This document shows, piece by piece, positions 11,922-64,000 of a stretch of DNA of 64,000 bases (position 1 is its first letter; the number at the start of each line of letters is the position of its first letter). This DNA comes from Selaginella tamariscina (lineage: Eukaryota; Streptophyta; Lycopodiopsida; Selaginellales; Selaginellaceae), in NCBI GenBank assembly GCA_003024785.1, contig PUQB01000198.1:167224-231223 (forward strand). The letters are read 5' to 3'. Under the pieces are notes generated by a model. It had not been told where the DNA came from and ran no database searches. It was given only the letters and a program-made list of their open reading frames with translations. The position numbers and the translations under genes were made by a program.

Positions 11922-12488
11922 TGTCAAGCCACGATCCAGGAACCATGAAGAGAGTAGGATTCTAAGAATATGAAGGCTTGACTCAGAAACAAGACCGAGA
12001 GCAGGACAGGAACTAGGAATAAGATAGGAACAGGACGGATTCAGGAGCAGGACAGGATCAGGATAGGATCCGGGAGCAAGATAGGAAAGCGCAGGACAGG
12101 ATCCAGGAACAAGATAGGAACAGGATAGGATCCAGGAGCAAGACAAGAGCAGGAGGCAAGGAGCAAGACACGAACAAGAATGATCGTAGAAAGACTGGTG
12201 TTAATTGTAACTGATTGTACAACAATTAGGTCGAAGCTTTTATGCTCACAAACTCCAAGCTAATCTGTATGAGTCTAATCTAGTCATGAGTTAAGAATAG
12301 TGACTCTTATCCTCTAGGCATATCCTGTAGCATATCCTATAGGCATATCCTGTAGGTATATCCCGTAGGAAATCCTGCAGGCATATCCTGTAGGTATATC
12401 CTATAATCCGTATCCTGTATCCTGTATCATGAATCATGTATTTGAAATCCTGTATCCAGAATCCTGTATCCTGTATCAAGTTGTGACA
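11922..12488 (-). repeat. 3' LTR of the chromovirus
   Basis: Bounded by tgtcaagcc on the left and ttgtgaca on the right. Two internal low-complexity zones, aggacaggatc-type repeats (11990-12170) and cctgtaggcatatcc-type repeats (12310-12480), are shared with the other LTR. Confidence 0.85.
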
Positions 12489-15400: not shown

Positions 15401-17357
15401 CAAAAACGTCCTTAAAGGAGTGATACTTGGATGGTAGGAAGAAGGAGGAGAAGGAAAAGGAGAAGGAGAAGAAGGAGATTGAAAAACAGGAGAGTCAGAC
15501 ACAGGAAAGGTAGAAGAGGACGTAGGAGTTACTTGAAAGGCAAAAAGGTGGAAAGGAGCAGGATCAGTGGTAAGTTCATGCATGGTAGTGGTAAGAACTC
15601 GGAGAGGAGAAGGAGGGAGCTGTGACTGAAAAAGAGGAAGGATCTTGGGGGTGGAACAGAAGCAGAGTAACAAAAGGAGGCAGGATTGGGAGAAACCTGT
15701 GTGGATGTTGACGAGTGTACAGGATTGGAAGAATCCTGTACAGAAGTCCGTGGTTGCACAGGAGTGAGGGAAGCCTGTGAGTGTGCTGACGAACCAACAG
15801 GAGGTGGATCCTGTTGAGGAGGAACCTTCGACACTGATACAGGATTGGAAGAACCCTGTACAGGAATCCGCAAACTTACAGGAGTGGAGAGAACCTGCGG
15901 ATGTGCTGAGGAGCTGACATGAGGTGAATCCTGTCGAGGAGGAGTCTTCAACACTGTACAGGAACAGGCACGGTCAATCCTGTAGCTTGTACTGCCTCAG
16001 ATTAAGGATGTATCCTGCACGCAGGAGGTACAGGATTGATCCTACTGTGGAGAGGAAAACGTGAGCGTCCTAGACCTCCAGTCGATCTGGATTTGCAACA
16101 ACGAACCATGGCATGCCCAAAATGATGGGAGTCGACCGAGTCTTGATCAAGTTGAAGGAAATTGAATAGTTGAATGTGTCATGACTGTAAGAGAAAGGTT
16201 CGGTAGCATGGGTAACTGCGCAGAAGCAATCAAACACCCATCGGCCACCTCTACAGGAACTGCACGCTTCAACTTCACCACTGAAATGCCATGTTGAGTT
16301 GCAAAAGTGTCATCCATGAAGCATGCATTTGCACCAGTGTCTAACAGGGTAAACTCCTTGAGCTCTCGATTATTAAATGAATGTGTACAGGAAACTTAAG
16401 TGATGGAATGGTATGAGCAGCACCAATGGAGCCTGCACCTACGTCCAACTTCGCGGCTCCTAGACGAAGTGGACATTGAAGTTTTCCGACTGAACTTCAG
16501 CTTCAACTTCACGCGTCTTGAACTTCCTGGCTTTAATAGGACATTCTGCCACCTTGTGTCCTGCTCACCACAATACAAGCATAGGTTCTCACTGCGGCAC
16601 GTTGCTTCTCAGCAGCGGAAAGAGAGCCACGCTTGGATTTCTCAACCTCCATAGGAACTACTCCAGAAGGTGGTGCAGGAACATGTACCACAGCTGCAGG
16701 ATTGGTTTGCAGGAACTGTTGACGGGATCTTTCCTGACGACGCTCGAACAAACGGTTGTCGCAACAAACAGCTTGTTGCATGATCTCGCTAATGTTTGGG
16801 CATCCGGTAACGTAAGGAGAAGGTCCTTCACGTCATCCCTCAACCCAAAACGGAAGTGTTGATCAATACAGTCTGTCCCATGGAATGTTCGTGCAAAGTT
16901 GCTAAAATTCGGATGCATAGACGGAAGCTGGTCGGGATCCTTGAGTGAGCTTCCATAACTTCCATCAATGGGTCGTCACGCTCCAGCAAGGGGGCAACCC
17001 AAGCCCGTGGAGATCCACTTAGTAAGGATGCCAAAGGCCAACCTTTTGTGCATCAGTCAAGTAACGGCGTGGTTGCATGCGGATCAAGAGCCGGATCTGA
17101 TTCAGGAAACCTTGGAAATCGGCACGATTGCCACTGAACTTTTTTGGCATGCTGATCTTTGGCTCTGAAGAAAAGTTTGATGAAGAGAGAACCACCGATG
17201 CCTGAGAGAGAGCCTGCGTAGCAGCCTTGGAGGATGCATCAGCAGCTGCATGCGCCGCATTGGTGGAACCTTGCAGATCGGTGACCACTTGGCGCAAAGT
17301 GGCCAGCTCATGCAACAACATTTGGTGCTCGCATTGAAAGCGCTCAAAATCAGCCAT
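12489..17357 (-). pseudogene. Chromovirus gag-pol polyprotein, frameshifted
   Basis: The gag start is at 17357 (MADFERFQCEHQMLLHELAT). A CCHC knuckle lies near 16575 (CLYCGEQ, with the rest one frame off). A protease-like segment lies at about 16360-16060. Reverse transcriptase at about 15250-14820 reads [41 protein letters not shown] and the catalytic YLDD. RNase H at about 14600-14200 reads [13 protein letters not shown] and [11 protein letters not shown]. Integrase at about 13680-13080 has the zinc-binding CDTCNQSK and the core HHGLPESIVSD. A chromodomain lies at about 12710-12570 (YEVVAILDSRLRR, YLVDWKGY, RTWEPASNL). A Pro/Ser-rich linker with repeated units lies at about 15690-16050. Several frame changes make this a non-functional copy. 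Chromodomains target insertion to chromatin with particular histone marks; that is family knowledge. Confidence 0.9.
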
Positions 17358-17454
17358 GATCTATGAAGGAAAAAGGAGGAAAACAAAGAAAAAGAATCAA
17401 GGAAAAAAAAAGTAGCTGGAAAACGGAGAGCTATGAAATCAGTTACAATCAAAC

Positions 17455-18034
17455 TATCAAGCCACGATCCAGGAACCAGGAAGAGAGTAGAATTCTAAGA
17501 ACATGAAGGCTTGACTCAGGAACAGGACCGAGAGCAGGATAGGAACTAAGAATAAGACAGGAATAGGACGGATTCAGGAGCAAGACAGGATCAGGATAGG
17601 ATCCGGGAGCAAGATAGGAAAGCGTAGGACAGGATCTAGGAACAAGATAGGAACAGGACAGGATCCAGGAGCAAGACAAGAGCAGGAGGCAAGGAGCAAG
17701 ACACGAACAAGACAAGAACAAGAATGATCGTAGAAAGACTGGTGTTGATTGTAACTAATTGTACAACAATTAAGTCGGAGCTTTTATGCTCACAACTCCA
17801 AGCTAATCTGGTCATGAGTCTAATCTAGTCATGAGCTAAGAATAATGACCCTTATCCTCTAGGCATATCCAGTAGCATATCCTATAGGCATATCATGTAG
17901 GTATATCCCGTAGAAATATCCTGCAGGCATATCCTATAGGTATATCCTATAATCCGTATCCTGTATCCTGTATTCTGAATCCTGTATCCGGAATCCTGTA
18001 TCCAGAATCCTGTATCCTGTATAGGGTTGTGACA
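17455..18034 (-). repeat. 5' LTR of the chromovirus
   Basis: Starts tatcaagcc (the TG end has become TA) and ends gttgtgaca. It is similar to 11922-12488 along its whole length. On the minus strand the polyprotein start is about 100 bp downstream. I could not find a convincing tRNA primer site. Confidence 0.8.
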
Positions 18035-20672: not shown

Positions 20673-22613
20673 TCAGAAGATGGTCTCGTCACTCTCACAG
20701 TCTCCCACACTGAGCTCTAAAACCTTCTTATTACTTTGCAAAACCCTACAGCATTGCCGCGGAGCCTATTAATTATTAATTAAGTTTAATTATTAATTAA
20801 GTTTTTAATTAATAATTAATTCCATCATTTTTATATCATTATATACTTTTCACCGTTTCTATTTATTTGGTCACGTGAAACTCTCAACCTGATGTAAACT
20901 ATATATAAGAGGGGGGTGGATATACAAGAAAAGAATGTTTCAGACTGCTTTATAAATACCCACATATATATTAAGGATATAACATAACAAATCTCAAACA
21001 ACACACACACACACACACACGTATACGTACCAAATGCCAATTGTCATCAGCTTGATCCTTGATAACGCGAATTTGCTCAAGGGACATTGGAGAATGATGT
21101 TGCATTGGCTTTGGAGATTTACACTCCGCTTTCTGCCGAGGATCTTTCATATAGTTACTTAAAGTCTGTCCTGCTTCATCCCCGTACCCGACGTCCTTCA
21201 GGTAAAACACCTGTACACATAAACCATACGTATATATATATGTGTGTGCGTGCGTGTGCGTGCTTACCGCGGGTTGTTCACAGGGATTTTGGAGGGCTGG
21301 GCGTGTACTAAACGGAAACGCTTCACCGTCTTGTTTACGGTACCAGCTATGGAATGTTCGCATGGGAAGCTCCAATATACGCGGCTCAATAAGACCTCTA
21401 TACACCTGCACAGCGTACCCCCACGATATCGAAACGGACCACTTCCTCCACTTGTCATAGCAAATAGATTGTTGTAAAACACCTGAGGATCCGCACGCAT
21501 TGACTTCTTCAGTAGCTTGAGAGCCTCGATCTGTGTCTTGTTGGGGAAAACCGGGTCAATCAAGTCTAGATGGTGGATTGATACCAGAGGCGTTACGGGG
21601 TGCGCCGCAAGCAGACCGAACACGTCCCCATATACGTCAAACTGCATAAGTAAACACGTCGGTGTGTGCGTGCGTGTATATTCAATACATACCTGGTGAA
21701 AACCGGGCTCCTTTGTGAGGGGAACACCGAGCTCGGCAAGACAAGCCTGTATACGGTCGTCGCTTCCGTATAGATATGGGTATCTCTGTATGCACTTGTC
21801 GTGGATCTTCTCCAGAGCCTTTGCAAGGGAGTAGCTTATAGCAAAGCCGCCCCCACCGTAAGCCATATTGTATGAGAACCGGACGTTTTGTGTGTGGCTC
21901 TCCGAGTGAGAACCGATGTAGAAATACTTGTTGTGGTCGTACTTGGAGAGGACCTTCACCAGATTCTCGGGTACAAACACGGTGTCGTCGTCCCCCATCA
22001 CGATCCAGTGGACATCCGGCAGTCCGAGACGGACCGTCTCGGACACTATCCGAGATATCCGTATAGCCGACCTGCTGCCCCTCCTGTTCGTGTAGTTGAA
22101 CCGAGATGTCTCCTCGGACACCTTCTCGGGGGAAGAGACGTCGACCAGTTACCAACGTACCTATCTAACCACACGAATCCCCTCATCTCCGGGTCTCCAC
22201 CACACCTTGACATACTCCTTACGTTTCTCCCATAGCCTGGAGGAAGCAGCTACCCCAAACACTATGTTTCCCAGTCCAGTCCTGTCGCCGGATCCTCCGT
22301 TGTCGTCGCTGCGACGGTGTCGCAGCGACGACCGGTGGCCCTCCGGCTCCGGAGAGAGGACGTCCTCGTAGTCCAGGTATCTGATACTCTCCCGCTCTTC
22401 ATTGTCCCTCCGTTCGATCTCCCTGTCCATCTCGGCAGCCATTTCCTGGCTGGACCTCTCCCTGCAGAGGTACCCGAGACACCTGCCGTGTCCTCCCACC
22501 GAGAACACGACGTACACAAACGCAAATGCCAACATGAAGACACCCGCTACTCTCATACCGGCTACCGCGTGGCTGCTGCTGCCGCCCGCGACATCCCCAT
22601 TGCCTTCATACAT
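20673..22613 (-). CDS. DUF604 / Fringe-like glycosyltransferase, membrane-anchored
   Basis: Four minus-strand exons fit: 21693-22613, 21268-21641, 21031-21210 and 20673-20765. Near the N-terminus is a single membrane span (VFMLAFAFVYVVFSV), giving a type II Golgi-like topology, then a charged stem, then GNIVFGVAASSRLWEKR, SEETSRFNYTNRRGSRSAI, the nucleotide-sugar/metal DxD motif in MGDDDTVF, AYGGGGFAISY, YGSDDRIQACLAELGVP and PLVSIHHLD. Exon 2 also has YDKWRKWSVSISWGY and NPCEQP; the last exon has APRQCC. This is the plant DUF604 family, related to Fringe and beta-1,3-galactosyltransferases. The sugar and acceptor are unknown. Frame breaks lie near 22185 (before RGFVWLD) and near 21477 (one extra T in a T run); homopolymer error is likely. 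An upstream ATG at 22672 in another frame could be the real start. Confidence 0.88.
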
Positions 22614-30737: not shown

Positions 30738-30811
30738 GGTCTCGTAGCTCAGTTGGTCAGAGCGTTGTTCTTATAAGCCAAATGTCGAGGGTTCAAGCCC
30801 CTCCGGGACCA
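30738..30811 (+). tRNA. tRNA-Ile (anticodon UAU)
   Basis: A 74-nt cloverleaf. The acceptor GGTCTCG pairs with CGGGACC, the D stem is GCTC/GAGC with loop AGTTGGTCA, the anticodon loop is CTTATAA giving UAU, and the T arm GAGGG TTCAAGC CCCTC is well paired. Box A (TAGCTCAGTTGG) and box B (GGTTCAAGCCC) are intact, and TTTTT follows directly as a Pol III terminator. CCA is not encoded beyond the discriminator A, as expected for a nuclear gene. The anticodon stem has one T-C mismatch, so it may be a weak or pseudogenised copy. No intron is present. Confidence 0.85.
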
Positions 30812-31741: not shown

Positions 31742-32269
31742 ACAATTTAAAATAACTAAATTCTTTATACTTCGGTTTTCAATGAGGTATTCTTTTAGGA
31801 TTGGCATATGTAGCAATCCATGCACACGGCACTATAAGTAACTCTTAAAGATGAAGTTCAAAATTCATGTTTTATAAAATTATAGTATTAGAGTTAATGA
31901 AGCTCACGAAACATAAGTGAAAACAATTCATTAACATGGAGAAGGGACAATTATAAAATTAGTGAAAGCAAACAATGTGGGACTCCAAGAGGCTAATAAG
32001 GGAAAGACATGATGATTGATTAAAAAAATTAAAGAAGTAGACACGTGTTCAATGTTAAAGATGGATGAGTTTAATTGAGAATTGGATGTAGAAAGCATTG
32101 GTTACATATTTACGAAAGGTGGAAAAGTTAGAGTGGTACTTAATCAATCTCAACCCATATTGAAAGCTCATACAAAAAGTGTACATTCACACCCTACCAC
32201 ATGTGAGAAAAAACTTGAAATGTTTAGAATGGGTTCACATTGGTTATTTATTAATTTTATTATTGAAGT

Positions 32270-32590
32270 AGGGAGATGGAGGGGCACAATCAATATGCAA
32301 GTTATGTAATAGACAAATAAAAGACAAATTCCACATTTTTATTAACTTCATTAAAATAGAGAGATGGAGGGGACACAATCAATATGTAAGTTATGTAACA
32401 GACAAGTAAAGATAAATTCCACACTTTTATTGACTTCATTAAAGTAGGAGATGGAGGGTACAATGAATATGTAAGTTTTGTAACAAATAGGTAAAAGACA
32501 AATTCCACATTTTATTAACTTCATTGAAGTAGGGAGATGGAAGGGGCACAATGAATATGCAAGTTATATAACAAACAAGTGAAGACAAAT
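32270..32590. repeat. Tandem array of about 85-bp units (copy 1)
   Basis: Four degenerate units share agggagatggaggggcaca, caagttatgtaac and gacaaattccacatttttat. The array is also present at about 47165-47480 in the second block. Confidence 0.85.
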
Positions 32591-33436
32591 TCCATGTAAT
32601 TTTTAATGCCAAGGCCACATTAGACACATGGGGTATATTTAATAGTCCTCGGAGATGCAAGGTTGACACATGTGGCTTAACTCATTGCTAAGTTGGAGAT
32701 GCTTATAATTATTGTTTAGGGATTGAAAACTCAAGGTGCTATCATAGGCTTGACTCAGTGGATCATGCTTAGAATATGTTTGACTTGTCATTTTATGCTA
32801 TGAATAACAACACATATGGATATATACATACAAGACGAGTATAATGAAAAATTATGTATTTTGATAAGTTGTATGAATGATATTAATTATAATATTGTTA
32901 TACACATAAAAATGACAGAGTTTAGGACTAGGCAATATTAATTAAATTTAAATATATTTTTAAATGTTCTCCTATAAGTAGTACATGGTTTTATGTATAT
33001 GTTTTAAGTTAAAATTCTAGCATGCATATGCTTGGGAACGGATGTATATGTATTTATATTAATTATATATTAAGGATATGTGTTACAGATTAAATTTGAT
33101 TGTAATTTTAAAATTATTTTAAAAAATTATAATTGTGAATATATTATTAATACTCTATGTTTAAATTAATAAGGTTTCAATTTAAATGATGTGATATATT
33201 TTAATTGAATAACTTAAGTGTTTTTCTTAGATTATTATAAGTATTTATTCATGTGTTTAATTCAAATTGTGGCTTCACATGAGAACAAATGCTCCCACCA
33301 TTTCAATTTTTTAATATAAATACATATATATGTGTGTGTGTGTACGTGCGCACGCACGATCATCCCCTTGAAAGTTTTGATGAGTCATTCCACAAACAAT
33401 ATATTTGAAAATGATAAGCACTTGTGAAAGTATGGT

Positions 33437-46024: not shown

Positions 46025-48328
46025 ATGTTTTTAGAATATTCTCACAACCTTACAATATGTATAGTTTGAAGTAAAAATTGTGTGTGTTTTAGGTTCTCCT
46101 CTACTATTCCAAGCTTTACGTTTTATATGAGTAATAATTCTATTCAAAAAATAAATAATATAATATTACAATATACTAATAATTTTTTATTTAAAGTATA
46201 TAAATACCTATATAATATAAAGAGCTTGCTTTATATATATTTTTTTCACACATAATTTGAGCTTAAGAAAATAATTTATTACACCCTCTAGATGTATACA
46301 CATACAACCCACTTCCACCACCAATTAATTTATTAAGTTAAGAGTAAACTAAATTCTTATCCCACCAATTTAGTTAAGTTAGAATTTAATAAATTATGTT
46401 AATTCAAACTTTACAAGATTCCAATAAATAAGTATCTCTCCAACCAAACTCAAGTGAAATTAAATTTAAAAAAAAAACATTACAAAATTTAATAGCACAC
46501 ATTAAGTTACCAGATTAAGATTAGGGTTTAAATTGACTTTTAAATTAAGCTATAAAAACAGGAGAAGAATATTATTTACTCTAACTTTAAAAATTGATTA
46601 TTATTACTTATTAAATAGATGTTGCATAAAAATATATGATGTACAATTTAAAATAACTAAATTCTTTATACTTCGGTTTTCAGTGAGGTATTCTTCTAGG
46701 ATTAGCATATGGTAGCAATTCATGCACACGACACTATAAGTAACTCTTGAAGATGAAGTTCAAAATTCATGTTTTATAAAATTATAGTATTAGAGTTAAT
46801 GAAGCTCACGAAACATAAGTGAAAACAATTCATTAACATGGAGAAGGGACAATTATAAAATTAGTGAAAGCAAACAATGTGGGACTCCAAGAGGCTGATA
46901 AGAGAAAGACATGATGATTGGTTAAAAAAATTAAAAAAGTAGACATATGTTCAATGTTAAAGATGGATGAGTTTAATTGAAAATTGGATGCAGAAAGCAT
47001 TGGTTACATGTTTACAAAAGGTGGAAAAAGTTAGAGTGGTACTCAATCAATCTCAACTCATACTGAAAGCTCATATGAAAAGTGTACATTCACACCCTAC
47101 CACATGTGAGAAAAAAGTTGAAATGTTTAAGATGGGTTCACATTGGTTATTTATTAATTTTTATTATTGAAGTAGGGAGATGGAGGGGCACAATCAATAT
47201 GCAAGTTATGTAACAGACAAATAAAAGATAAATTCCACACTTTTATTAACTTCATTAAAATAGAGAGATGGAGGGGCATAATCAATATGTAAGTTATGTA
47301 GCAGACAAGTAAAAAACAAATTCCACACTTTTATTGAATTCATTAAAGTAGGAGATGGAGGGGTACAATGAATAATAAAAATAGGTAAAAGACAAATTCC
47401 ACATTTTGAGTGACTTCATTGAAGTAGGGAGATGGAGGGGCACAATGAATATGCAAGTTATGTAACAAACAAATGAAGACAAATTCTATGTAATTTTTAA
47501 TGCCAAGGCCACATTAGACACATGGGTATATTTAATAGTCCTCGGAGATGCAAGGTTGACACATGCGGCTTAACTCATTGCTAAGTTGGAGATGCTTATA
47601 ATTATTGTTATTAGGGATTGAAAACTCAAGGTGCTATCATAGGCTTGACTCAGTGGATCATGCCTAGAATATGTTTGACTTGTCATTTTATGCTATGAAT
47701 AACAGCACATACGGATATATACATGCAGGACGAGTATAATGAAAAATTATGTATTTTGATAAGTTGTATGAATGATATTAATATAATATTGTTATACACA
47801 TAAAAATGACAGAGTTTAGGACTAGGCAATATTAATTAAATTTAAATATATTTTTAAATGTTCTCCTATAAGTAGTACATGGTTTTATGTATATGCTTCA
47901 AGTTAAAATTCTAGCATGCATATGCTTGGGAACAGATGTATATGTATATTTATATTAATTATATATTAAGGATATGTGTTACAGATTAAATTTGATTGTA
48001 ATTTTAAAATTATTTTAAAAATTATAATTGTGAATATATTATTAATACTCTATGTTTAAATTAATAAGGTTTCAATTTAAATGATGTGATATATTTTTAA
48101 TTGAATAACTTAAGTGTTTTTCTTAGATTATTATAAGTATTTATTCATGTGTTTAATTTAAATTGTGGCTTCACATGAGAACAAATGCTCCCACCATTTC
48201 AATTTTTTAATATAAATACATATATATGTGTGTGTGTACGCGTCGCGCGATCATCCCCTTGAAAGTTTTGATGAGCCATTCCACCAAACAATATGTTTGA
48301 GAATGATAAGCACTTGTGAAAGTATGGC

Positions 48329-53383: not shown

Positions 53384-53541
53384 TATCACTAGATCTTTGT
53401 AGTTAAATTGATAAGCTCTACATATGAATATTTAAGATAACTAACATGTGTCTTGTGTATACGTATGTAGCTTCGTACTAATGTTTTAGGTTATCCACTG
53501 GAGTTCATATCAATGAATTTACACACATTTGCATATATCTA

Positions 53542-53912
53542 CGCACGTTGTAACTAAAGTGGGCATGATACGTGAAAATGGGAATATAAAATAAATTACT
53601 AATTAATACTTAAGTTTTAATTATTAATTAATTCATTTAATTAATATGTAATTAAGCCTTAAATATTAATTAATTAATTAATTAATCCTTCAATAACCTT
53701 ACTTAGTAAGGAATATTCCTAAAATATCTTAGAATATTCATATTATTCTAAAAATAGTTTACAATAATGAAGAAATACTATCAAACATAATTACAAATGA
53801 AATCATTTCTTATCAACATGTTAATTTTTATAAATACTTTCTTCCTAATCATAAGAGAAATCTTCTCATTTTGTCTAAATCATCACTCTCCGGATTAATC
53901 AAATCATTTTGG
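53542..53912. other. AT-rich spacer
   Basis: Repeats of taattaattaatta near 53660-53690; no gene is seen. Confidence 0.45.
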
Positions 53913-55071
53913 TCAATATCTTGATGTTGTTGCCACCACCTTAACACTCTCACGAATGCAATTGGGAGTTGCCATCCTTGTTAATACATAAGATGTAATA
54001 AGACCAGGTCTGCATAAAGGCTCATCTAAAAAATGACGTTCCTTAAGAATAATATTATAAAGCGCCCGGTTGCTATCCTTCATTTTATAAAATTCAAAAT
54101 CACGAGAAAGAAAAGCTTCAGGAAATGTATGATACGGTGGATACTGCTCACAAAAATTTTCGAGATTCTTCTTTCTGAGGCACGTATCCAAGTAGTTCAC
54201 TAGCTCATCCATGATATCGGTATCAGAATATGGATCGAAAGTGATTGGATGAATACAAGCAATGTTTTGGTTGAGCATAGCCTTCTGAGGAGAGTCGTCT
54301 ACTACTAAGATATGTGCATTCTTCGTCATTATCCTTAAGCGACTGATCTCCCCATGAGTCCCAATTATTCTTTCATTCTTGAAGAAGTATGGCTTGCTTT
54401 CCTTTCTTATATTGTGAAATTCGAGAGGTTTATAACACATTCGCTGGTCAAAAATCCAATCTTTACGAATCACCTCTTCTGCAACACTACAATGTTTCTT
54501 AAGCAAATTCAACAGCGGTGTTAAGTTATGAATCTGCATGCATGACCAAATCCCCACAAGCGCACCCATCTCCTTAAGCTTTTGAAAGAGACGATCCAAC
54601 CCTGGACGAAAAATAATATCATATCGAAATTTACCATGACAAGGAATGAAATCTCCTTGTTTGATTTCTTTTTTCTATCCTCGGGCCTTTGTCGATGAAG
54701 CAGAACACCATTGACATCCAACAACACAATATGGCCATGAGTAACATGAGATAGCGTTGCCTCTTGAATACTTTGCAAATCACTTGTTTGCTCCCTTTCA
54801 CATTTATCCGTTGCCACTATCTCGTTGCCATCCCTTCATCATTTAATTGTACATCATCCTTACAAGATTCAGATATTGCATGCGCTGAAGAAATTGATTT
54901 CGGAACTGAAGCCAATAAAAATGATGATGAAAACTGAAGTGGCCCCCATGGTAACGATGTTTTGAGCTGCATTATTATCCATTTCCTGCATGAACTCTGT
55001 CATTCTGACATGTGGCACAAGAAATTGTCGCCAAACCCCTCTCTTACCTCATGCCAATGCTGAAAATCCAT
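53913..55071 (-). CDS. FCP1/HAD-type phosphatase-like protein
   Basis: The minus-strand reading begins MDFQHWHE (exon 55048-55071, GTAAGA donor). A region of uncertain structure and frame follows, then HIVLLDVNGVLLHRQRPED, where DVNGV is HAD motif I. Next come RYDIIFRPGLDRLFQKLKEM and GALVGIWSCMQIHNL (motif II Ser), then KNAHILVVDDSPQKAMLNQN (the VDDSP motif) and FDPYSDTDIMDELVNYLD, with a stop at 53913. This is the FCP1-homology (SCP/NIF) fold, which dephosphorylates Ser/Thr, for example on the RNA polymerase II tail. Motif I is DxNGV rather than DLDET, so the general acid position is Asn and activity is doubtful. One-base breaks lie near 54640 and near 54825. It lies 200 bp downstream of, and on the same strand as, the methyltransferase-like gene, so it may belong to the same module or be a host gene. 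Confidence 0.7.
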
Positions 55072-55271
55072 GTTCTCAATTGTTTCATTACATCTGCAAA
55101 ATGATAATTAGCTGACCTTAAAATTATCAAGGTATATTATTTACCTTGTTAATGTGTGACCCATGTTTGAACTAAAAGCTTCATTAATCCTTGAGAATTT
55201 ATTTTCTGTACAAAATAAAAGAAATATACAAAAATGCCTTATGTTACACTCATTTACAACTATTCGTCACT

Positions 55272-57204
55272 CTAACAATTCATTAACAATTCTTCTTCGC
55301 TATTACCTTCTGAGTGAGGCGAAGAAGGTCTAAGCCGCTTGTGAGATGGTTCAAGATCTTCTTCATCTTCTATTGATGTTTCCATGGGTAATGGAGTGTG
55401 CAAATGTTCTGTACTCCTCGAGATAACTTCCGGTCTAATATCTGATTGAAGTTCGTCCTCAGACTCCGACATTGAACCAGATTTCTTCAGAGCTATCGCA
55501 CTTATCTGGAGGGAACTTTCTCAAATACTCCTTTATGGATTCGTTGGGGTAGTCAGTTGAGAACCTATCTATCCACTTGTTCAGGTCCTCAACCATGGTC
55601 TTATCCTTTTCAACGGCAAAACACATGTATGCCGAAGGTAACACTCCTTCAAGACGGACCCCCTAGTGCAGTAGTCAAAAACCCACGCATCACTGTGAGG
55701 ACCCCTGATCAAGTTGACGATGCTCCGTGCCGCTTGACTTGTGATGTTTGGATAACGTACATTGCCGAATACGTCACTCTCACCTATCGGTGTATCGGAT
55801 GGAGGTTCAGGGCCGTTGGAGTGCAAACAGATGCCTGGCCAGTCATTTGGAAGTTTGAAACTGTTTGGCGCATTCCTAACAACCAAGTGAACAACCGAAT
55901 CAATGCACTTCGGATCAGCATCATTCATATAAAATCCTGTCCAACGATGTTTATTCTCTTGGCAAAGGAGAAGGCAAAGGTATCGGTGACATGAGCAAGA
56001 ATCAAGAAATAAATACCTGAAAACGTAGATATCAGTCAAGAGTGCAAGTATGAATTCAATAATAAATACCTTCTTTGTACATGCTTGCACGGCTAAGTTT
56101 CTCCACCAATCCTCTAGTGTCCTGTCTGTCGAAGGATTTTTTGACACCCCGATCCATCACGAACAATTGAAACGGTTTCCTACAAGCAGTGATGGTACCC
56201 CATAAAGTCTCCGAATCCAACAACAAACATCTGTAGGGCTTGTCGTGATTCGTAGCATCCTCCTTTATAAGGTTCAACTCGGTTCTCCGCTGCTGAAGGA
56301 CTGCCATAAGAGAAGGCGTCATCGCAATGTTCTCCTTCTTGGCGTTGGCGTGCAATAGATTCTTGCCCAGATCTTCCGATTGATTCACCCATTCGACAAG
56401 CATATCATCGTTGTCACATGCAAATATTTGTTGACCTCTTCGTATGTTGAAGCCGAAATCCAACCCAGTTTGTGGCAGTGTATTCCCAACCACTCCTTGA
56501 AGTGCCTGACCGTCTTCAACTCCATTGCCTTCAGATGAAAGGAGAGGTGGGGCTGCTGTTGTTAATCTGTAATTTGCCATCAATCACCAAATCAGCCAAG
56601 ACTTCCATCTCCTCCATCGTTGTTCCATTTAAAGGCTTCAACCATGTGAGCTTGAAATCGTTGTCTACATCCTTTATAGATTGAACAGACTTAGCCTTCG
56701 GCGTCTTACTGGGTTTCTTTGCAGACTTCTCTGAGGGCTCCACTTCACTTGTCTGCTTTCTTCAGTGTTCCTTTTGCAAAGGATTCCATAATCCCCAACC
56801 ATTTGCAAAGATCCTATCCTCGGGACAAGAAATCAACATCATCAAAAGGATGTTTCCTTCCCGCCCACCTGGGCAAAATCAACTGCTACAATTTCTTCAA
56901 CTCTCTGAGGAAAAAGACAGATTAATATACCGGCGAGATAAATCCCGCCCAAACAATTTGCTTACCCGGTATCCGCAGATTGTGTATTCCCTGCGGTAGC
57001 TCTTTGTGGTCGCTGAAGAGATTCCCACACGGCTCGCGTGTGTTTGAACTTCTCCCATATTTTGCTGTTGTAGTGGTTGGTGTCTGCAGCGTCCCATTCC
57101 GCCGATAAATTATGGTACTGCTCGATTGTGAGATTCGACTTTGCTAAAAACGCCGATCTTTTCGTCAGCTTCTCACGAGTATGCTCGGAAAGTTCTGTTG
57201 CCAT
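55272..57204 (-). CDS. Beta-class DNA methyltransferase-like protein, degenerate
   Basis: Minus-strand pieces, in order: 56966-57204 (MATELSEHTREKLTKRSAFL, a GTAAGC donor); 56920 downwards (KKPSKTPKAK basic stretch, then EVLADLVIDGKLQI); 56056-56540 (FNIRRGQQIFACDNDD, PYRCLLLDSETLWGTI, FVMDRGVKKSFD); an intron; 55600-55960 (HRWTGFYMNDADPK, FGNVRYPNITSQAARSIVNL, WVFDYCTRGSVLKECYLRH); then, one frame over, CFAVEKDKTMVEDLNKWI; finally an acidic tail (SESEDELQSD, SIEDEEDLEP) with a stop at 55272. The layout resembles beta-class N4C/N6A DNA methyltransferases: a motif IV region first, then K/Y-P..., a leucine-rich helix, motif I (hhDhxxGxGS) and hEKD. The catalytic DPPY is not seen (DSETLWG sits where it might be) and motif I reads DYCTRGS. 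It may be inactive, or the resemblance may be partial. About four frame breaks are present. Confidence 0.4.
56931..56950. repeat. Isolated diverged palindrome unit in intron 1
   Basis: cggcgagataaatcccgccc is a diverged copy of the GGCGGGATTAATCCCGCC unit, placed in or beside the first intron of the leftward gene, outside the main array. Confidence 0.7.
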
Positions 57205-57254
57205 CGTTCCTTTGTTGTGTTCGTCGAGAAGTCGTTGGGCTGCCAGGCCAATGG

Positions 57255-57750
57255 CGGCGGGATAAATCCCGCCCGATTCCGCGCAAGGCATGCGTACGCG
57301 GCGGGATTAATCCGCCGCTTAGGCCCTTCACTCTGGCCTTAGTCGGCGGGATTAATCCCGCCGGACGCCAATTCCCTGTGTAGAATTCGGTGGGATTAAT
57401 CCCGCCGCCTAAGCCCTTCAGGCAGGCCAATGGCGGCGGGATAAATCCTGCCCAATTCCGCGCAGGGCATGCGTACGCGGCGGGATTAATATTCCGCTCA
57501 TGAGAGTAACGAATGAGCGGCGGGATTAATCCCGCCAGACGCCAATGCCTTGTGCAGAATCCGGCGGGATTAATCCCGCCGCCTAGGCCCTTCAGGCAGG
57601 CCAATGGCGGCGGGATAAATCCCGCCCGATTCTGCGCAAGGCATGCGTACGCGGCGGGATTAATCCCGCCGCTTATGAGGGTAACGAATGAGCGGCGGGA
57701 TTAATCCCGGCGCCGAGTGGCTAATTATATAGCGACGGGATTAATCCCGC
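57255..57750. repeat. Palindrome array 1 (12 units of GGCGGGATTAATCCCGCC)
   Basis: Units start at about 57255, 57299, 57344, 57388, 57435, 57478, 57518, 57562, 57607, 57653, 57692 and 57733, 39-47 bp apart. The central TTAA is ATAAAT in every fourth unit or so. Spacers themselves repeat with a period of 172-181 bp (ggccaatggcggcgggataa at about 57246, 57427 and 57599). The array begins some 50 bp upstream of the leftward gene's start, so it occupies its promoter or 5' leader. Confidence 0.95.
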
Positions 57751-57829
57751 CGCTACACACACACACACACACATATATATACAGATTATACAGATATTGG
57801 TATACATAATATATGTATGTATACATAGG

Positions 57830-57878
<49 letters not shown>

Positions 57879-57955
57879 TGGTGTATCGTGTGTATGCGTG
57901 TGTGAAACAAATAAAATCATACAGATAAACAAACACACACACACACATATATATA
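57751..57955. repeat. CA/TA/TG microsatellite field
   Basis: Runs of CA, TA, TG and again CA immediately follow array 1; no gene. Confidence 0.85.
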
Positions 57956-57959
57956 ATAA

Positions 57960-58255
57960 ATAAATAGAATATATATATATATATATATATATATTATCTG
58001 TGTGTGTGTGTATATGTATACGAGTGTGCGTGTGTGTGAGAGATAGAGATCTATAGAGAAGAGAGAGAGAGAAGGAGATATATATATATATATATATATT
58101 ATCTGTGTGTGTATATGTATACGAGTGTGCGTGTGTGTGCGAGAGATAGAGATCTATAGAGAAGAGAGAGAGAAGGATATATATATATATATATTATATA
58201 TCTGTGTGTGTATATGTATACGAGTGTGCGTGTGTGTGCAGAGATAGAGATCTAT
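57960..58255. repeat. Three-unit repeat of about 100 bp with microsatellite ends
   Basis: Each unit has (TA)n, then tatctgtgtgtgtatatgta, then cgagtgtgcgtgtgtgtg, then agagatctatagagaagaga. The third unit ends at about 58255. Confidence 0.85.
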
Positions 58256-58382
58256 TATATTATTAAGATACATACACATATAAATATATATGTGAATAAA
58301 AATAAATAAATATCACAATAAACGCAGAGGAGTGTGCGTGTGAGAGAGAGAGAGATCTCACCTGTGTGAGAGAGAGAAGGAG

Positions 58383-58530
58383 ATTTCGCTGCCGCCGCCG
58401 CCGCCTTACAAACCCTAGGAATATACCAAAACCCTAAAAGGAATAGAATATATATTAACCCTAATCGAATATTCCTTTTAAGAATATACTTAAACCCTAA
58501 AAAGAATAAACTATAGATTCGCCCTAAACG
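58383..58530. promoter_or_regulatory. Telo-box-like AAACCCTA cluster
   Basis: A (GCC)n run is followed by acaaaccctagg, aaaaccctaaaagg, taaccctaatcg and taaaccctaaaaag. Repeated AAACCCTA (telo-box) is common in promoters or leaders of plant growth genes. It lies between the divergent genes, so it may be a promoter element, but no adjacent exon is certain. Confidence 0.35.
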
Positions 58531-58727
58531 AATATTCTTTCATTATAATCAGCGTGTGCGTGGTGGGTGTATCACATACACCCCAAGAATAAATATCATG
58601 CAAGGGTTTAACACGTGTGTGTCCATGAGAGTGTTAAAGTTTCACATGCAGCGATACATATATACACACATAGTATTATACACATACATACATACATATT
58701 AGTACATATTAATATTAGAGAGACAGA

Positions 58728-59215
58728 GTACAGGATCATGTATGGTGTGTATGTATGAGAGAAGAGTGACAATACATATTATGGATCATGCATGGTGTGT
58801 ATGTTTGAGAGAAGAGAGACAGTACATATTTACATGGATCATGCATGGTGTGTATGTATGAGAGAAGAGTGAGAGTGTTAACAAATTAAATTCATACACA
58901 TTGGATATATTAGTACACACGTGTATACACACAGACATACATACATATTACATGTGTAAATTCAATGTAGGGTTTAGGGTTTAGGGTTAGGATGGATCAT
59001 GCATGGTGTTTATGTATGAGAGGAGTGAGTGTTATACACAGATATACATTATACATATTACATAATATTGTAACATCAGTACATATTATGGATCATGCAT
59101 GGTGTGTATGTATGAGAGAAGAGACAGGCTACATATTATGGATCATGATCATGCATGGTGTGTATGTATGAGAGAAGGGATTATGCATGGTGACACTGTG
59201 TATGTATGAGAGAAG
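58728..59215. repeat. Minisatellite, unit ggatcatgcatggtgtgtat
   Basis: Seven or more units of 50-120 bp share ggatcatgcatggtgtgtat followed by gtatgagagaagag, interrupted by acatacacacgtgtatac-like sequence. Confidence 0.85.
58968..58990. repeat. Short interstitial TTTAGGG tract
   Basis: Three near-perfect plant telomere units (gggtttagggtttagggtta). Too short to imply a chromosome end. Confidence 0.7.
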
Positions 59216-60340
59216 AGATAGAGTGTTAACAAATGAAAATCGTACACATTGCATATATTATATTAGTACACATATATACATACACACGTGTATACACACA
59301 GACATACATATATATTACATGTGTAAATTCAATGTGTTACATACACACACTGAGTACATATAGATCATACATGCGTTGAACATGATGTTTTTCAATAAAG
59401 AAGCAACATATAATTTCTCAAGTTTGGTTTAGGGCAATGTGCATGTGTGTGCATATGTGTCTCTGTAAGTGCTTCTAATGCGTGTGCACATGTATATATA
59501 AATTTATGATTGTGTTTATATATAATATGTGCAAAACAAACATCGAATAATTAAGAAAATAATATTAATATACACACTATGAACATATTTTAAATTATAC
59601 ATAATAATATATGATTTTATCTAATATATAGCCATATATAGTTTTAATATATATATTAATTTAATATTGATAATAAGGTTTAACACTAGAATATTCTTGA
59701 AATAATAACAAATTAATTGAGAAAATCCCATTAATATATACAAATATATTACTGAGATAATTAAGAATAAGACTAATTTAATTATGATAATGTTTAATAT
59801 TGGAATATTCTTTGAATATTAAGAAAATAATAAAGAATATCCCATTAATAGTAGGAAATGTAAATTAATTACTCGAGTAATTAAGAAAATAATAATAATA
59901 AACAGACTATGAATATATTTTAAATGATACATAATAATATATCAATTTATTTATTGTATTAGTGTATATATATATATAATATAAACTTAATAATATATAC
60001 TTGAATATTAAGAATGTAGAATAATTACAAAAATTTCGTAATATTAAACAGCTTGAAGCACTTGAATGACATTAAATGCAATTTTAAAACACTCATTGGA
60101 ATTGGAGAGTATATATGTCAGACTGTCGGTTATTTGTTTCAACTCATCTTAAATTTTCTTTTCTGTTATTTCAAAAATTTTGAATTTCTGACATAAGTAT
60201 TATCAGTCTGACATGTAAATTTGAAAATACATTTAATTTCCCACTCAAATTCAGATCTGGTTCTTTCTCCGGCAAGGGTTTCTTCATTTTCACTCTTCAG
60301 ATTTTCTTTTTTCTTCTTAGTGATCAGCTCAGGAGCGACA
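59216..60340. other. AT-rich spacer of the divergent locus
   Basis: Very AT-rich, no frame recognised. Two loosely similar segments (about 59560-59700 and 59880-60000) share aataataatattaatatacac and ttttaaatgatacataataa. Confidence 0.5.
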
Positions 60341-60398
60341 TTAAATTGGGTGCGCTATTGTTTATAGGAAAGCACGGCGCCTTCAGTGCTGTTTACAA
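60341..60398 (+). other. Candidate 5' leader exon of the rightward gene
   Basis: A less AT-rich patch ends at the strong donor gtaagtatt (60399). The coding exon starts after a good acceptor (tatgtgcag, ending 61457). If they are joined, the whole second palindrome array lies in the first intron. The start of this exon is unknown. Confidence 0.35.
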
Positions 60399-60567
60399 GT
60401 AAGTATTATAAACAAATTTAGATATATTTATAAAGATTCACTCTCTTACATTCTCTCTTAAATTTTAGAATTTAGGGATTTAGGAATGCATTAGGATTAC
60501 AATATATTCTGTTAGGGATTTATCCCGTTTAAATATACTTTTAACTTAGTATTCTCGGTTAGCCGGG

Positions 60568-61311
60568 GGCGGGATTAATCCGGCCATTTTTTTTCGCCTC
60601 TTTGAAGAGGTGGCGGGATTAATCCCGCCACCATCTCTTTCATAGCTATGGCAGAATTAGTTCGGGCAATGCTTCTCCGCCTTTAAAAAGAGCGGCGAGA
60701 TTAATCCCGCCGATAACTCTCTCAACTGATAATGATTTACTTGAATTTATTAGAAAGAGTTGTCGGCGGGATTAATCTCGCCAACCATTTTAGGAGGCAG
60801 AGAAGGGGTGGCGGGATTAATCTCGCCACTACTTCCCTGTTTTAAATATTTGTGGGCAGAATTCATCCCGAATCTCTTTGAAATCATAGTTTCGGAGAGA
60901 GTTGTGGGCGGGATTAATCCCGCCGCTTATTCCCCGTCGTCAGAGTTGTGGGCGGGATTAATCCCGCCGCTATTCTCCGTCGTCAGTGTTGTGGGCGGGA
61001 TTAATCCCGCCCCCTCTTCCTCGTCGGAGGAATTTGCGGCGGGATTAATCCCGCCGACTCTCACAGAGGGAAGATCCGGCGGGATTAATCCCGCCGGTAC
61101 TTCCTCGTCGGAGGGAGCCCGCGGCGGGATTAATCCCGCCGTACTTCCTCGTCGAGGGAGCCCGGCGGGATTAATCCCGCCGCTCTCTCCAGGGGTAGAG
61201 CGGCGGCGGATTAATCCCGCCGACTCTCTCCGATGGGGTAGAGTCGGCGGCGGGATTAATCCCGCCGACTCACTCTGAAGGGGTAGAGTCTGCGGCGGGA
61301 TTAATCCCGCC
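60568..61311. repeat. Palindrome array 2 (about 16 units of GGCGGGATTAATCCCGCC)
   Basis: Units start at about 60568, 60612, 60694, 60765, 60810, 60853 (diverged), 60907, 60951, 60994, 61037, 61078, 61123, 61164, 61205, 61249 and 61294. From 60907 on the step is 41-45 bp. Spacers are mostly variants of ctcttcctcgtcggagggag and differ from those in array 1. The left units are more diverged and the right ones nearly perfect, as if the array grew rightward towards the gene. Confidence 0.95.
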
Positions 61312-61463
61312 CATCAGTTATATTAATAAAGCATGAGATATTATTTTATATATAATTATGTATTATTGCACATGCATATTATTAAGCAACTGCAGTTATG
61401 ATTTCTTAAAATATTGCATAAACAGATATCATAAATAACACAATTATTTATGTGCAGGACAAT

Positions 61464-64000
61464 ATGTATAATACTGGAGATAAAGTATGTCTTCTTCGGA
61501 ACAACGAGATAGTTGGCACTGGAACTGTGGAAGTTCGAGATGATAATGCATCATGTCACAATATTGCCCAAGGATCTTGTGTGTACGTATGGGTGAACAC
61601 CATTTTCAAGCATGTTGAGGTTCCTGGAATGGAATTTGAGGAGGGTTCTCCTGTATTGTGGAATTTGGATGAAGTCAAGGCTGACACAGAATATACAGAG
61701 TCACAAACAAACAGTAGCACGAGTTTTCCAGATGATGGCTTGCCTGCTGTGATGGATGAGGTGATTCTCTTTCTTCATGAGATTGAGGTTGGGAGAGGCA
61801 TCATCACAGCTATAAATCCAATGGAAGCAGTGTCAGAAGAGAAACTAGGGTCCGACTTCGTGGGTGTAGTTGTGACAGAGGTTTCACCTAATGGCACTTT
61901 GCATCCTGGATCCCTCGTGAGGTGGCGAACATCTGAATTAAGACGGCAAGATGGTTCAACATATTCTGGGTTGGATTTCAATAATAACAACCCGGAAGAA
62001 CAACTCATATTTGAAGAGGTTCCTTGCATTGGTCCTATTGTAAGAAAAAGGCGATTCATGGGTTGCAGATCTTCCCCTACATGTTTCAGCAAGAGGATGA
62101 AGATGGATCCTACATCTTCCGAAAGTGTTACGAGCATTTCCACGATTGACTGCTGCAAGAAGAAGTGTTGTCAGATGGCAGACCGGAATGAAATTACCCA
62201 ATGTAGACATGTCTTTCGTACGCTCACCCAAAAGCAAAGGCATGAGTTTGTATATGCTGCACTAACTGGGTGTATTGATGGAATGGCTTCGGACACAGGT
62301 TATCAGAGTACATCCATGGTATTTAATAAGGTGGCCATCTGCTTCAAAGCTTGGTACAGTATATATGGGATCCCAAAGACCACGTTCTACCGTCGGAGGG
62401 ATGAGTGGTTAGATGGAGCGCGAACCTCAGTACATGGGAACACTGGCTTGGTCAAAACCCGCTCTCACATTATGGCAGCCATAGAGATACTCAAGGCTTT
62501 TGTGGAAGCAAATGCAGACAGGATGCCTCACAAATGCCGAACCACAAATGCAGGGGTCAGGGAAAATCTCAAGGTTTTGCCTTCGATCTACACTCAATTG
62601 AAGCTGTGTGAACATGTGAACAAGTGCCTCAGCTTGATGGGGCTGCAAGCAATCTGCACTGGTACCTTCAACAACATATGGAATACTCATTTTAAGGATG
62701 TGGAGATTGCAAAACACTCTAGCTTTTCCAAGTGTGACACTTGTACATCATTGAAGGCTGCAGAGGCTTGTGCAAAAACCTTGGTGGAGATCACTGCCAT
62801 TCAAAAGAAGATGGAGGCCCACATGATTGCACAACAAACTTGCCGGTCTCAGTACTATGCACACCGCATGCTTTCTGTGTCACGCCCATCAGAGTACCTG
62901 TGCTTGATCCATGACAAGATGGATCATTCAAAGACCAGCATTCCAAAGCTCGTTGCAACACCAAAGTGCCTTGGAAATGTCATGAAACTTCCGATTTCAT
63001 TGACAGGTGTGCTAACACATGGACACGGTTGTGAATCATATGGACACTTTTCACTTCCACATTGGTCTAGCGACTCCAATTTCACTATTGGGTCGTTGGC
63101 CATGTGTTTCAGAAACCTTGAAGCCCACTCACAGACAAGTCCTATCGGTGATCTCAAAGTGAAGAAACAACACCTTCAACCTTTACATAATGCTCTCATG
63201 AACACGTCTGCACTTGAGGCTACTTGGGAATATGAGAGGCATTGTCAGCAACCTGCACAAAAAACAGATGGCCCTGTTGAGAGTTCAGGTTCAGTGGAGG
63301 GATCTAGCTCAAATAGTGTACATGTGTCCTCAACATCAAATAAGCTTCCTCGTCATTTGCTTTTACAGATGGATAATTGTGCAGGCGAGAACAAAAATAG
63401 GTAAATCATTTTACTTAAGGGTTTCTCAAGCTCATACTTACTTTTATTTTCTAGATATGTGCTAGCATACTTGTCAATGCTTGTTGCCAAAGGTGTGTTT
63501 GAAACAATCACGCTCAGTTTTCTTATGGTTGGTCACACTCATGAAGATATTGATGCGTTCTTCAGCAAGGTCTCCAATCTACAAAAAAGGACAAGTGCAC
63601 TTACCTTACCGCATATGATGAATCTTTTTGAAAATTGCATCTCCAAAAAAAGTTGTGCTTTGCTTGTGACTGAGGTGCCAGACTTCAAAAAATTTCTCAA
63701 GGAGTATATAAAAGAGGGGAGTGATTCTTTAGTTGGTCACCTTGTGCCGCTACAATTCTTTTTCTCCATACGAGATGGTATACCTATTATGCAGTACAAG
63801 TTACGGCCATCAGAGCAGGAGTGGTTACCGAAAGAGGGTTAATGCTCTTCAAAAGTGGAGAGAATGGAAAGCCACTTCTCCCAGAAGGACAACCAGACCC
63901 TATTCCATTGAGTGCCCAGCTCAAGGAACAAGAGGTTATTATTGATGGCATCAAAAAATATGTGGCATGGGTTCAAAAATCGATGCCAAAGAATTCTGAT
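61464..64000 (+). CDS. DDE/RNase H-fold transposase-like protein (DNCAGENKN/GHTHEDID family), partial
   Basis: The first coding exon is 61464-63400, then a 54-bp intron 63401-63454 (GT...CTAG), then 63455 onward past the window end. The start ATG follows the acceptor at 61457. Residues 5-60 and about 100-160 form two related beta-rich units (GDKVCLLRNNEIVGTGTV; DEVILFLHEIEVGRGIITAI), like the small accessory domain found in plant transposon proteins. A C..C pair (FSKCDTCTSLKAA) follows near 420. Three acidic motifs then appear in order: LIHDKMDH, LLLQMDNCAGENKNR (split from YVLAYLSMLV by the intron) and LMVGHTHEDIDAFFSKV. I know this motif set from uncharacterised proteins of plants, oomycetes and cnidarians (labelled DUF7869, if memory serves); a DDE catalytic triad is my inference. 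A one-base break near 63838 moves the C-terminus to another frame (LMLFKSGENGKPLLPEGQPD...), open to 64000. Confidence 0.75.

Follow-up and report, generated by a model that had tools for sequence, protein, structure and literature searches.

Introduction

In VANDAL21, a transposon of Arabidopsis, the protein VANC21 binds the motif YAGTATTAY, which is densely arrayed in the non-coding regions of the element, and motif repeats have been gained and lost in the introns of VANC21 and VANB21 and upstream of VANA21, their density being important (PMC5735166, available sections). The binding of VANC proteins to non-coding regions leads to the loss of silent marks, an activity for which TnpA of Spm and MURA are cited as parallels (PMC10398659, available sections). 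CACTA elements have CACTA/CACTG termini and a 3-bp target duplication, and one of them, Tgmt*, measures 20.5 kb (PMC2613891, in part). Here we describe a stretch of 64,000 nucleotides from the lycophyte Selaginella tamariscina (assembly GCA_003024785.1, contig PUQB01000198.1, positions 167,224 to 231,223; hereafter the window), in which two arrays of one 18-bp palindrome, GGCGGGATTAATCCCGCC, are built-in parts of a cut-and-paste DNA transposon. An earlier note on this DNA held that no described element had such an arrangement; this was too strong, given the motif arrays in introns and upstream regions of VANDAL21 (PMC5735166, available sections).

Results

The palindrome arrays belong to one transposon family

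The window contains 27 sites within 3 mismatches of GGCGGGATTAATCCCGCC, 14 of them exact, against none in 100 dinucleotide shuffles. The left array (57256..57751) comprises 11 of these sites and the right array (60568..61311) comprises 15 together with some decayed units, while a single site stands apart at 56932..56949. About 28 copies in two clusters had been proposed for this region: the clusters stand, and the count within the interval concerned is 26, the lone site falling outside it.

Across the genome (300.7 Mb, 1,391 contigs) the exact palindrome occurs 27,128 times and a control pattern, the palindrome read backwards, not once; at the base composition of the window, far fewer than one occurrence is expected. 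The 100 places listed first, of the 27,128, are confined to contig C1, from about 8.6 kb to 2.08 Mb, and group into 11 clusters, all of which were fetched. All 11 lie in copies or relics of one transposon family: ten include sequence from its genes or its ends, and the remaining one, near C1:2071485, is a piece of array whose main blocks are 81-93% alike to the array of a diverged relic copy, E7. Whether other arrays lie next to homologues of the two genes had been asked in the earlier note: among the places listed, the arrays accompany this element, and the palindrome, abundant as it is, occurs as a component of a transposon and not as a general satellite. Both arrays lie midway in a long repeat, the coding arms of which are mostly 94-98% alike in BLAST comparisons. 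Exact palindromes number 14.3 per copy on average (range 2-28 in 14 sampled copies, some of them partial). As the genome contains 1,452 right ends of the family with at most one mismatch, about 21,000 of the 27,128 palindromes would be accounted for, and the family plausibly holds most of them.

The element is bounded at both ends by a terminal inverted repeat of about 27 bp, ATGCA[C/A]GTTGTAACTAAA[G/A]TGGGCATG. For the pairing of ends, listings covered about 100 right ends (of 851) and about 100 left ends (of 875). Of these, 36 right and 35 left ends were entered because, by eye, each might have a partner 3-20 kb away; copies below 3 kb lie outside this search. An exact 4-bp target duplication flanks 18 of the 35 resulting pairs (33 right ends, two of which were paired with two left ends each), compared with a mean of 1.0 and a maximum of 5 when partners were shuffled 500 times. 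Repeats of 4 bp at other offsets number 0-1, and a 3-bp repeat at the same boundary is seen in 4 of the 35 pairs. Single-base errors and recombination are possible causes for the 17 pairs without an exact 4-bp repeat. Among the paired copies the median length is 14.6 kb and the extremes are 7.1 and 18.1 kb; 29 of the 35 fall within 13.6-15.1 kb. Terminal inverted repeats and a target duplication of fixed length mark the family as cut-and-paste DNA transposons. Its members, most of those compared being from contig C1, have two outward-facing coding sides, with a DUF7869 protein (protein B) encoded rightward, and an orphan protein (protein A) and a NIF-like gene (gene C) encoded leftward.

The arrays flank a central non-coding region

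Each array is predicted to sit in a leader intron, that of gene A on the left and that of gene B on the right, and between them lies a central non-coding region (58362..60398) with simple repeats and AAACCCTA motifs, presumably a two-way promoter together with leader exons. The predicted leader intron of gene B spans 60399..61457 on the forward strand, with boundaries ACAA/GTAAGT and TGTGCAG/GACAATATG, and contains the whole right array, in agreement with the earlier suggestion that this cluster lies just before the rightward gene or in its leader intron. The predicted donor site of the gene A leader intron (58361..58362, reverse strand; CACACAG/GTGAGA, read from the sequence) has its acceptor in full-length copies.

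The left array had been thought to abut the start of the leftward gene, and this is not borne out. On the side of the left array facing gene A, the window copy has lost about 2 kb, a few hundred codons from the beginning of the gene among them, and the array is truncated there. In seven copies (E1, E3, E4, E5, E6, E8 and E9) this ATG and the array are separated by about 1.5 kb that consists chiefly of coding sequence from the 5' part of gene A, and the distance from the predicted start to the closest palindrome unit is about 0.35 kb. The ATG next to the array in the window thus reads as an internal codon of gene A, joined to the array by the deletion; in the fuller copies the left array is still near gene A, but within its predicted leader intron. 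The lone palindrome at 56932..56949 (reverse strand, 2 mismatches, recovered by the mismatch search) lies in a short predicted intron of gene A and shows the same two differences in all eight copies examined. In eight copies, the outer 3.3 kb on the left and 3.7 kb on the right contain no site with up to 3 mismatches, and a role of the kind played by subterminal repeats, one of those considered in the earlier note, is not supported.

The palindrome is conserved while spacers diverge

In a comparison within six arrays, taken from three copies, palindromes are 0.90-0.97 alike; spacers reach 0.52-0.59, and shuffled spacers 0.44-0.47. The palindrome values are inflated, since units were chosen for their similarity (at most 4 mismatches). 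When left arrays are set against right ones, the similarity is 0.92-0.97 for palindromes and 0.48-0.49 for spacers, the latter near the 0.46-0.47 of shuffled sequence; left and right spacers look unrelated. Both the constancy of the palindrome amid drifting spacers and the difference in spacers between the clusters thus agree with what had first been noticed. When units were sought by spacing, 91 of 116 expected ones were found within 4 mismatches (five arrays), and 173 of the 212 neighbour pairs less than 60 bp apart have a spacing of 41-46 bp.

Among 460 units with up to 3 mismatches, 210 are exact, and 78 distinct forms occur, the exact form included. Paired positions changed across the 78 forms on one side in 141 cases and on both sides in four, three of the latter being complementary; transitions that keep a G-U pair number 41, and those that lose it 36. 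These counts leave out relic E7 and the outer cluster of copy E8, and forms common to related copies are not independent events. The prevalence of one-sided changes and the lack of preference for G-U pairs point to a site in double-stranded DNA rather than an RNA hairpin. Change is least frequent at positions 6-8 of each half (GAT). In an aged copy (C151:30000-37200, L032; 80-87% alike in BLAST blocks) the outer GC part of the palindromes has decayed mainly by C>T and G>A.

The number of units varies between copies, and higher-order repeats occur. Some spacers resemble each other in a single orientation, and for these pairs it is the inverted one in 64 of 290 cases in left arrays and in 39 of 339 in right arrays. 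Because the palindrome is its own reverse complement, a spacer flipped between two palindromes leaves the sites intact, and the inversions suggest recombination or template switching at the palindromes.

Encoded proteins

Gene B has two predicted exons encoding about 1,020 amino acids with DUF7869, and its place and size make protein B the probable transposase. Five homologues were found, the two longest, of 1,055 and 1,060 amino acids, being 34 and 33% identical over 98 and 99% of the query. DUF7869 is present in the genome of the window (G000) and in none of 14 control genomes. With regard to an RNase H-like DDE/D core, DUF7869 is all that was recognised in protein B. The structural model of one homologue, P0001, has a mean predicted local distance difference test score (pLDDT) of 48 and gave weak SH3/Tudor/PWWP-like matches and no PDB match at E<=0.001. 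Its N-terminus matches the TNP1/EN/SPM family below threshold (E=6.6e-4, 19.9 bits against a cut-off of 21), as seen in two of seven members. The four genomic DUF7869 places examined, out of the seven with top scores, all belong to the same transposon family, and DUF7869 families with different motifs were not found among them.

Gene A in the fuller copies follows the predicted leader intron, begins with MESSSNSG and reads as about 976 amino acids. Pieces of protein A gave no Pfam match at E<=10 in hmmscan and no homologue at E<=1 in sequence searches; a 185-residue piece gave no phage match at E<=10, and no PDB relative scored better than E=0.34. Two weak hits were set aside, one to an NCBIfam model for proline-tRNA ligase (E=0.0027; 16.7 bits, the cut-off being 558) and one to a PHROG of unknown function (E=0.23). 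By eye, and judged by the signatures of these families, protein A contains a ParB/Srx-like stretch (NPNFNYRPLNQERVAELMEKM ... YYIISGQHTITAAQRLL), and its C-terminal half has two landmarks of an N6/N4 amino-methyltransferase with the catalytic motif replaced (LLLDSETLWG; VFDYCTRGSVLKECYLRHTCVFAVEKD). The earlier description of the gene as methyltransferase-like agrees with this visual resemblance and found no confirmation by profiles: neither ParB_N nor a methyltransferase profile matched protein A pieces in hmmscan searches of Pfam and NCBIfam at E up to 10. ParB_N (PF02195) has no match in the whole genome, and 11 of the 14 control genomes are positive. The single-sequence model of the ParB-like stretch has a mean pLDDT of 39, at which fold matches are meaningless. 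The resemblance to ParB and to a degenerate methyltransferase is a lead, not a result.

The NIF domain of gene C is recognised both in the window reading frame (PF03031, E=7.9e-9) and in a majority-rule protein (E=3.1e-12). Its first motif is DVNGV, the usual form in NIF phosphatases being DxDx(T/V).

Selection and decay

Shared variants, defined as those found in at least two of nine copies, have nonsynonymous to synonymous counts of 22/26 in gene A (3' part only), 24/31 in gene B and 14/5 in gene C. The codon analysis implies a ratio of about 3:1 without constraint, and the lower ratios of A and B indicate conserved proteins. The tested part of A, as well as B, thus shows purifying selection, and C is not clearly constrained; the comparison of A with C gave p=0.057. 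With singletons included, which probably comprise assembly errors, the counts become 37/43, 108/54 and 44/17 for A, B and C. Stronger selection on A than on B, with p=0.003 for all variants and p=0.85 without singletons, is not claimed.

In the gene A part of relic E7 (C1:2050001-2070000; L025, L028), 160 of 895 aligned bases depart from the main family, and C>T or G>A changes affect 23 of 67 CG sites, 17 of 78 CHG sites and 42 of 264 CHH sites. This pattern is a mark of cytosine methylation, to which the host appears to subject old copies. At its right end, E7 has 29 differences in 561 bases and no change at four CG sites, too few to judge; E7 is possibly a mosaic or unevenly decayed.

The window copy and its surroundings

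The copy in the window extends on the forward strand from 53541 to 64000 and runs on for some 1,089 bases beyond the window (L010:1-1089), as delimited by BLAST blocks against other regions of contig C1 and by terminal alignments. It is 11.5 kb long and damaged, and the four bases on its two flanks, ATCT and ATTT, agree at three positions. The left terminal inverted repeat (53541..53567, forward strand) starts with AC instead of AT and pairs with the right end at about L010:1063-1089. Gene C, with a NIF domain like that of C-terminal domain phosphatases, lies on the reverse strand at approximately 53913..55010. It is followed, also on the reverse strand, by the 3' part of gene A (55272..57244, from reading frames), the 5' part of which is seen in other copies. 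On the forward strand, DUF7869 begins in exon 1 of gene B (61464..63400; PF25273, E=2.4e-12) and is completed in exon 2 (63455..64000 and on to about L010:580; PF25273, E=7.7e-27), which has frame breaks in this copy. Single-base insertions and deletions break the reading frames at different places in each copy, and look like assembly error as much as decay.

Elsewhere in the window, an open reading frame with an RVT_1 domain (14756-15973, reverse strand) lies between similar direct-repeat clusters at 11990-12477 and 17554-18022, and the whole segment (11990-18022) looks like a decayed long terminal repeat retrotransposon. An exon of a host-type gene for a DUF604/Fringe-like glycosyltransferase is found at 21267-22148 on the reverse strand, and a tRNA-Ile with the anticodon TAT at 30738-30811. 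The presence of introns, this DUF604 protein and the AAACCCTA motifs suggest a plant host. Tandem arrays of a nearly identical 88-bp unit occur at 32262-32594 and 47166-47486, about 15 kb apart.

Discussion

By analogy with VANC, the arrays may well be rows of binding sites for a homodimeric protein encoded by the element itself, with a putative function in anti-silencing or self-control, although this explanation could equally turn out to be wrong. Each array would offer a row of sites about 44 bp apart to a DNA-binding protein, most likely protein A, or else protein B. Dense occupancy of both leader introns would allow the element protein to recognise its own copies, and might protect the central two-way promoter from being closed by DNA methylation, or else set the expression of the element in another way. 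The density of the array would matter more than any single site, which would explain a variable copy number combined with a constant motif. Recombination or template switching at the palindromes would lengthen, shorten and invert the arrays, and in a dead copy the sites would become methylated and then decay. A binding site for a dimeric protein had been proposed from the outset: the symmetry of the palindrome fits it, and the binder is putative. The observation made in the earlier note is confirmed and its interpretation partly supported.

The closest parallels are VANDAL21 and VANDAL6, Mutator-like elements that are likewise multi-gene plant DNA transposons with tandem arrays of one short motif, mainly in non-coding sequence such as introns and upstream regions, and with varying repeat numbers (PMC5735166 and PMC10398659, available sections). 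The Selaginella family differs from them in its near-perfect 18-bp palindrome, which takes the place of a 9-base directional motif, and no VANC-like protein was recognised in it, though a comparison with VANC sequences was not part of the search. VANDAL elements have a Mutator-type transposase and a target duplication of about 9 bp; DUF7869 and 4 bp were found instead. The likeness would lie in the way of working, reached independently, and not in descent. CACTA elements (En/Spm and Tgm, with TNPA and TNP1) are alike in being large plant elements with repeated motifs and an element-encoded protein. The present family falls outside CACTA by its termini of ATGCA[C/A]G, by a duplication of 4 bp (18/35) and not of 3 bp (4/35), and by the position of its palindrome arrays, which are internal and not subterminal, other subterminal motifs not having been searched for. 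Sola-type eukaryotic DNA transposons share with it a target duplication of 4 bp. Neither the palindrome nor the term DUF7869 was found in the literature text searched, and the best 12 of 85 records on palindromic repeat arrays in DNA transposons, as represented by titles and the starts of abstracts, contained nothing fitting.

Transposition provides another possible use of the arrays, as cis-acting sites on which the transposase or a helper assembles a complex, in the manner of TNPA on CACTA subterminal repeats. Element proteins do bind repeated motifs for transposition in CACTA (PMC2613891, in part), and a 7.1-kb deletion copy on contig C172, flanked by a 4-bp target duplication, retains six units of the right array. 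The central position of the arrays, several kilobases from either end, and their adjacency to gene starts make this explanation improbable, and a recombined relic on contig C633 joins left-end and right-side sequence without an array, though it may have formed in place. We are similarly doubtful that the arrays are a self-propagating minisatellite, in which the palindrome is kept only as a copying or template-switch point in fold-back DNA and binds no protein. Array length differing between copies, spacers present in both orientations and higher-order repeats would all be accommodated by such a process. It fits poorly with one palindrome being shared at 0.92-0.97 identity by two arrays with unrelated spacers, with the identity of the lone intron copy in eight of eight copies, and with the presence of the same palindrome in relic E7, whose gene A part has diverged so far.

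A host protein might also be the binder. The halves of the palindrome can be likened to two inverted E2F-like sites, the E2F motif being GGCGGGA/TCCCGCC, and the element could borrow a cell-cycle factor for its expression in dividing cells; the AAACCCTA motifs of the central region, which are frequent in plant promoters, would be in keeping with this. Strict inversion about TTAA and the array form are not known to be usual for E2F, the sites lie in predicted introns, and substitutions fall mostly in GGCGG and least in GAT/ATC, for which deamination may be the cause; we consider the borrowing of a host factor unlikely. An RNA element, with the palindrome acting as a hairpin in transcripts of the leader introns, is a very remote prospect. 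Both arrays do lie in introns predicted to be transcribed, the palindrome could form a 7-bp stem with a UUAA loop, and a complementary double change occurs in two units of E7. Covariation is nonetheless scarce (141 one-sided against 4 two-sided changes), G-U-keeping transitions are not favoured (41 against 36), and Rfam at its gathering threshold finds only tRNA in the window.

Several observations weigh against the binding of a homodimeric element protein. The units were selected by similarity; the conserved core and variable outer bases of the palindrome may be explicable by cytosine deamination; and the double change in E7 runs counter to a site in double-stranded DNA. The leader introns that hold the arrays are predictions from sequence. 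Protein A showed no DNA-binding domain that could be recognised, nor did any profile or homologue support a function for it, and the similarity between the N-termini of proteins A and B is not significant (E=0.045, probability 1%). The indication of selection on B comes from the shared variants, one stretch of exon 3 of gene A has a ratio of 7/2, and the copies used in these comparisons are related to one another and come mostly from a single contig.

A bolder form of the explanation, which we think unlikely, would be an independently evolved anti-silencing system based on self-recognition by sequence, in which an element protein resembling ParB and a degenerate methyltransferase loads on the arrays in both leader introns and spreads or clamps as ParB does on parS, thereby shielding some 1,450 copies. 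Fusions of ParB with methyltransferases are frequent in phages (PMC12704722, in part). The likeness to bacterial ParB-parS and to these fusions lies in the order of stretches in protein A, as judged by eye; protein A matches neither profile, and its model is too poor for the fold to be judged.

If the arrays are indeed docking sites for an element-encoded protein, they would constitute a second motif-array design by which a plant-like transposon recognises itself, here one that does not belong to the VANDAL group, and would link such recognition with the still unnamed DUF7869 proteins and with an orphan protein that is under purifying selection. An exact, symmetric and repeated site would make binding easy to test. 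The finding also raises the question of whether dense docking arrays directed against silencing may underlie the high copy number of large autonomous elements.

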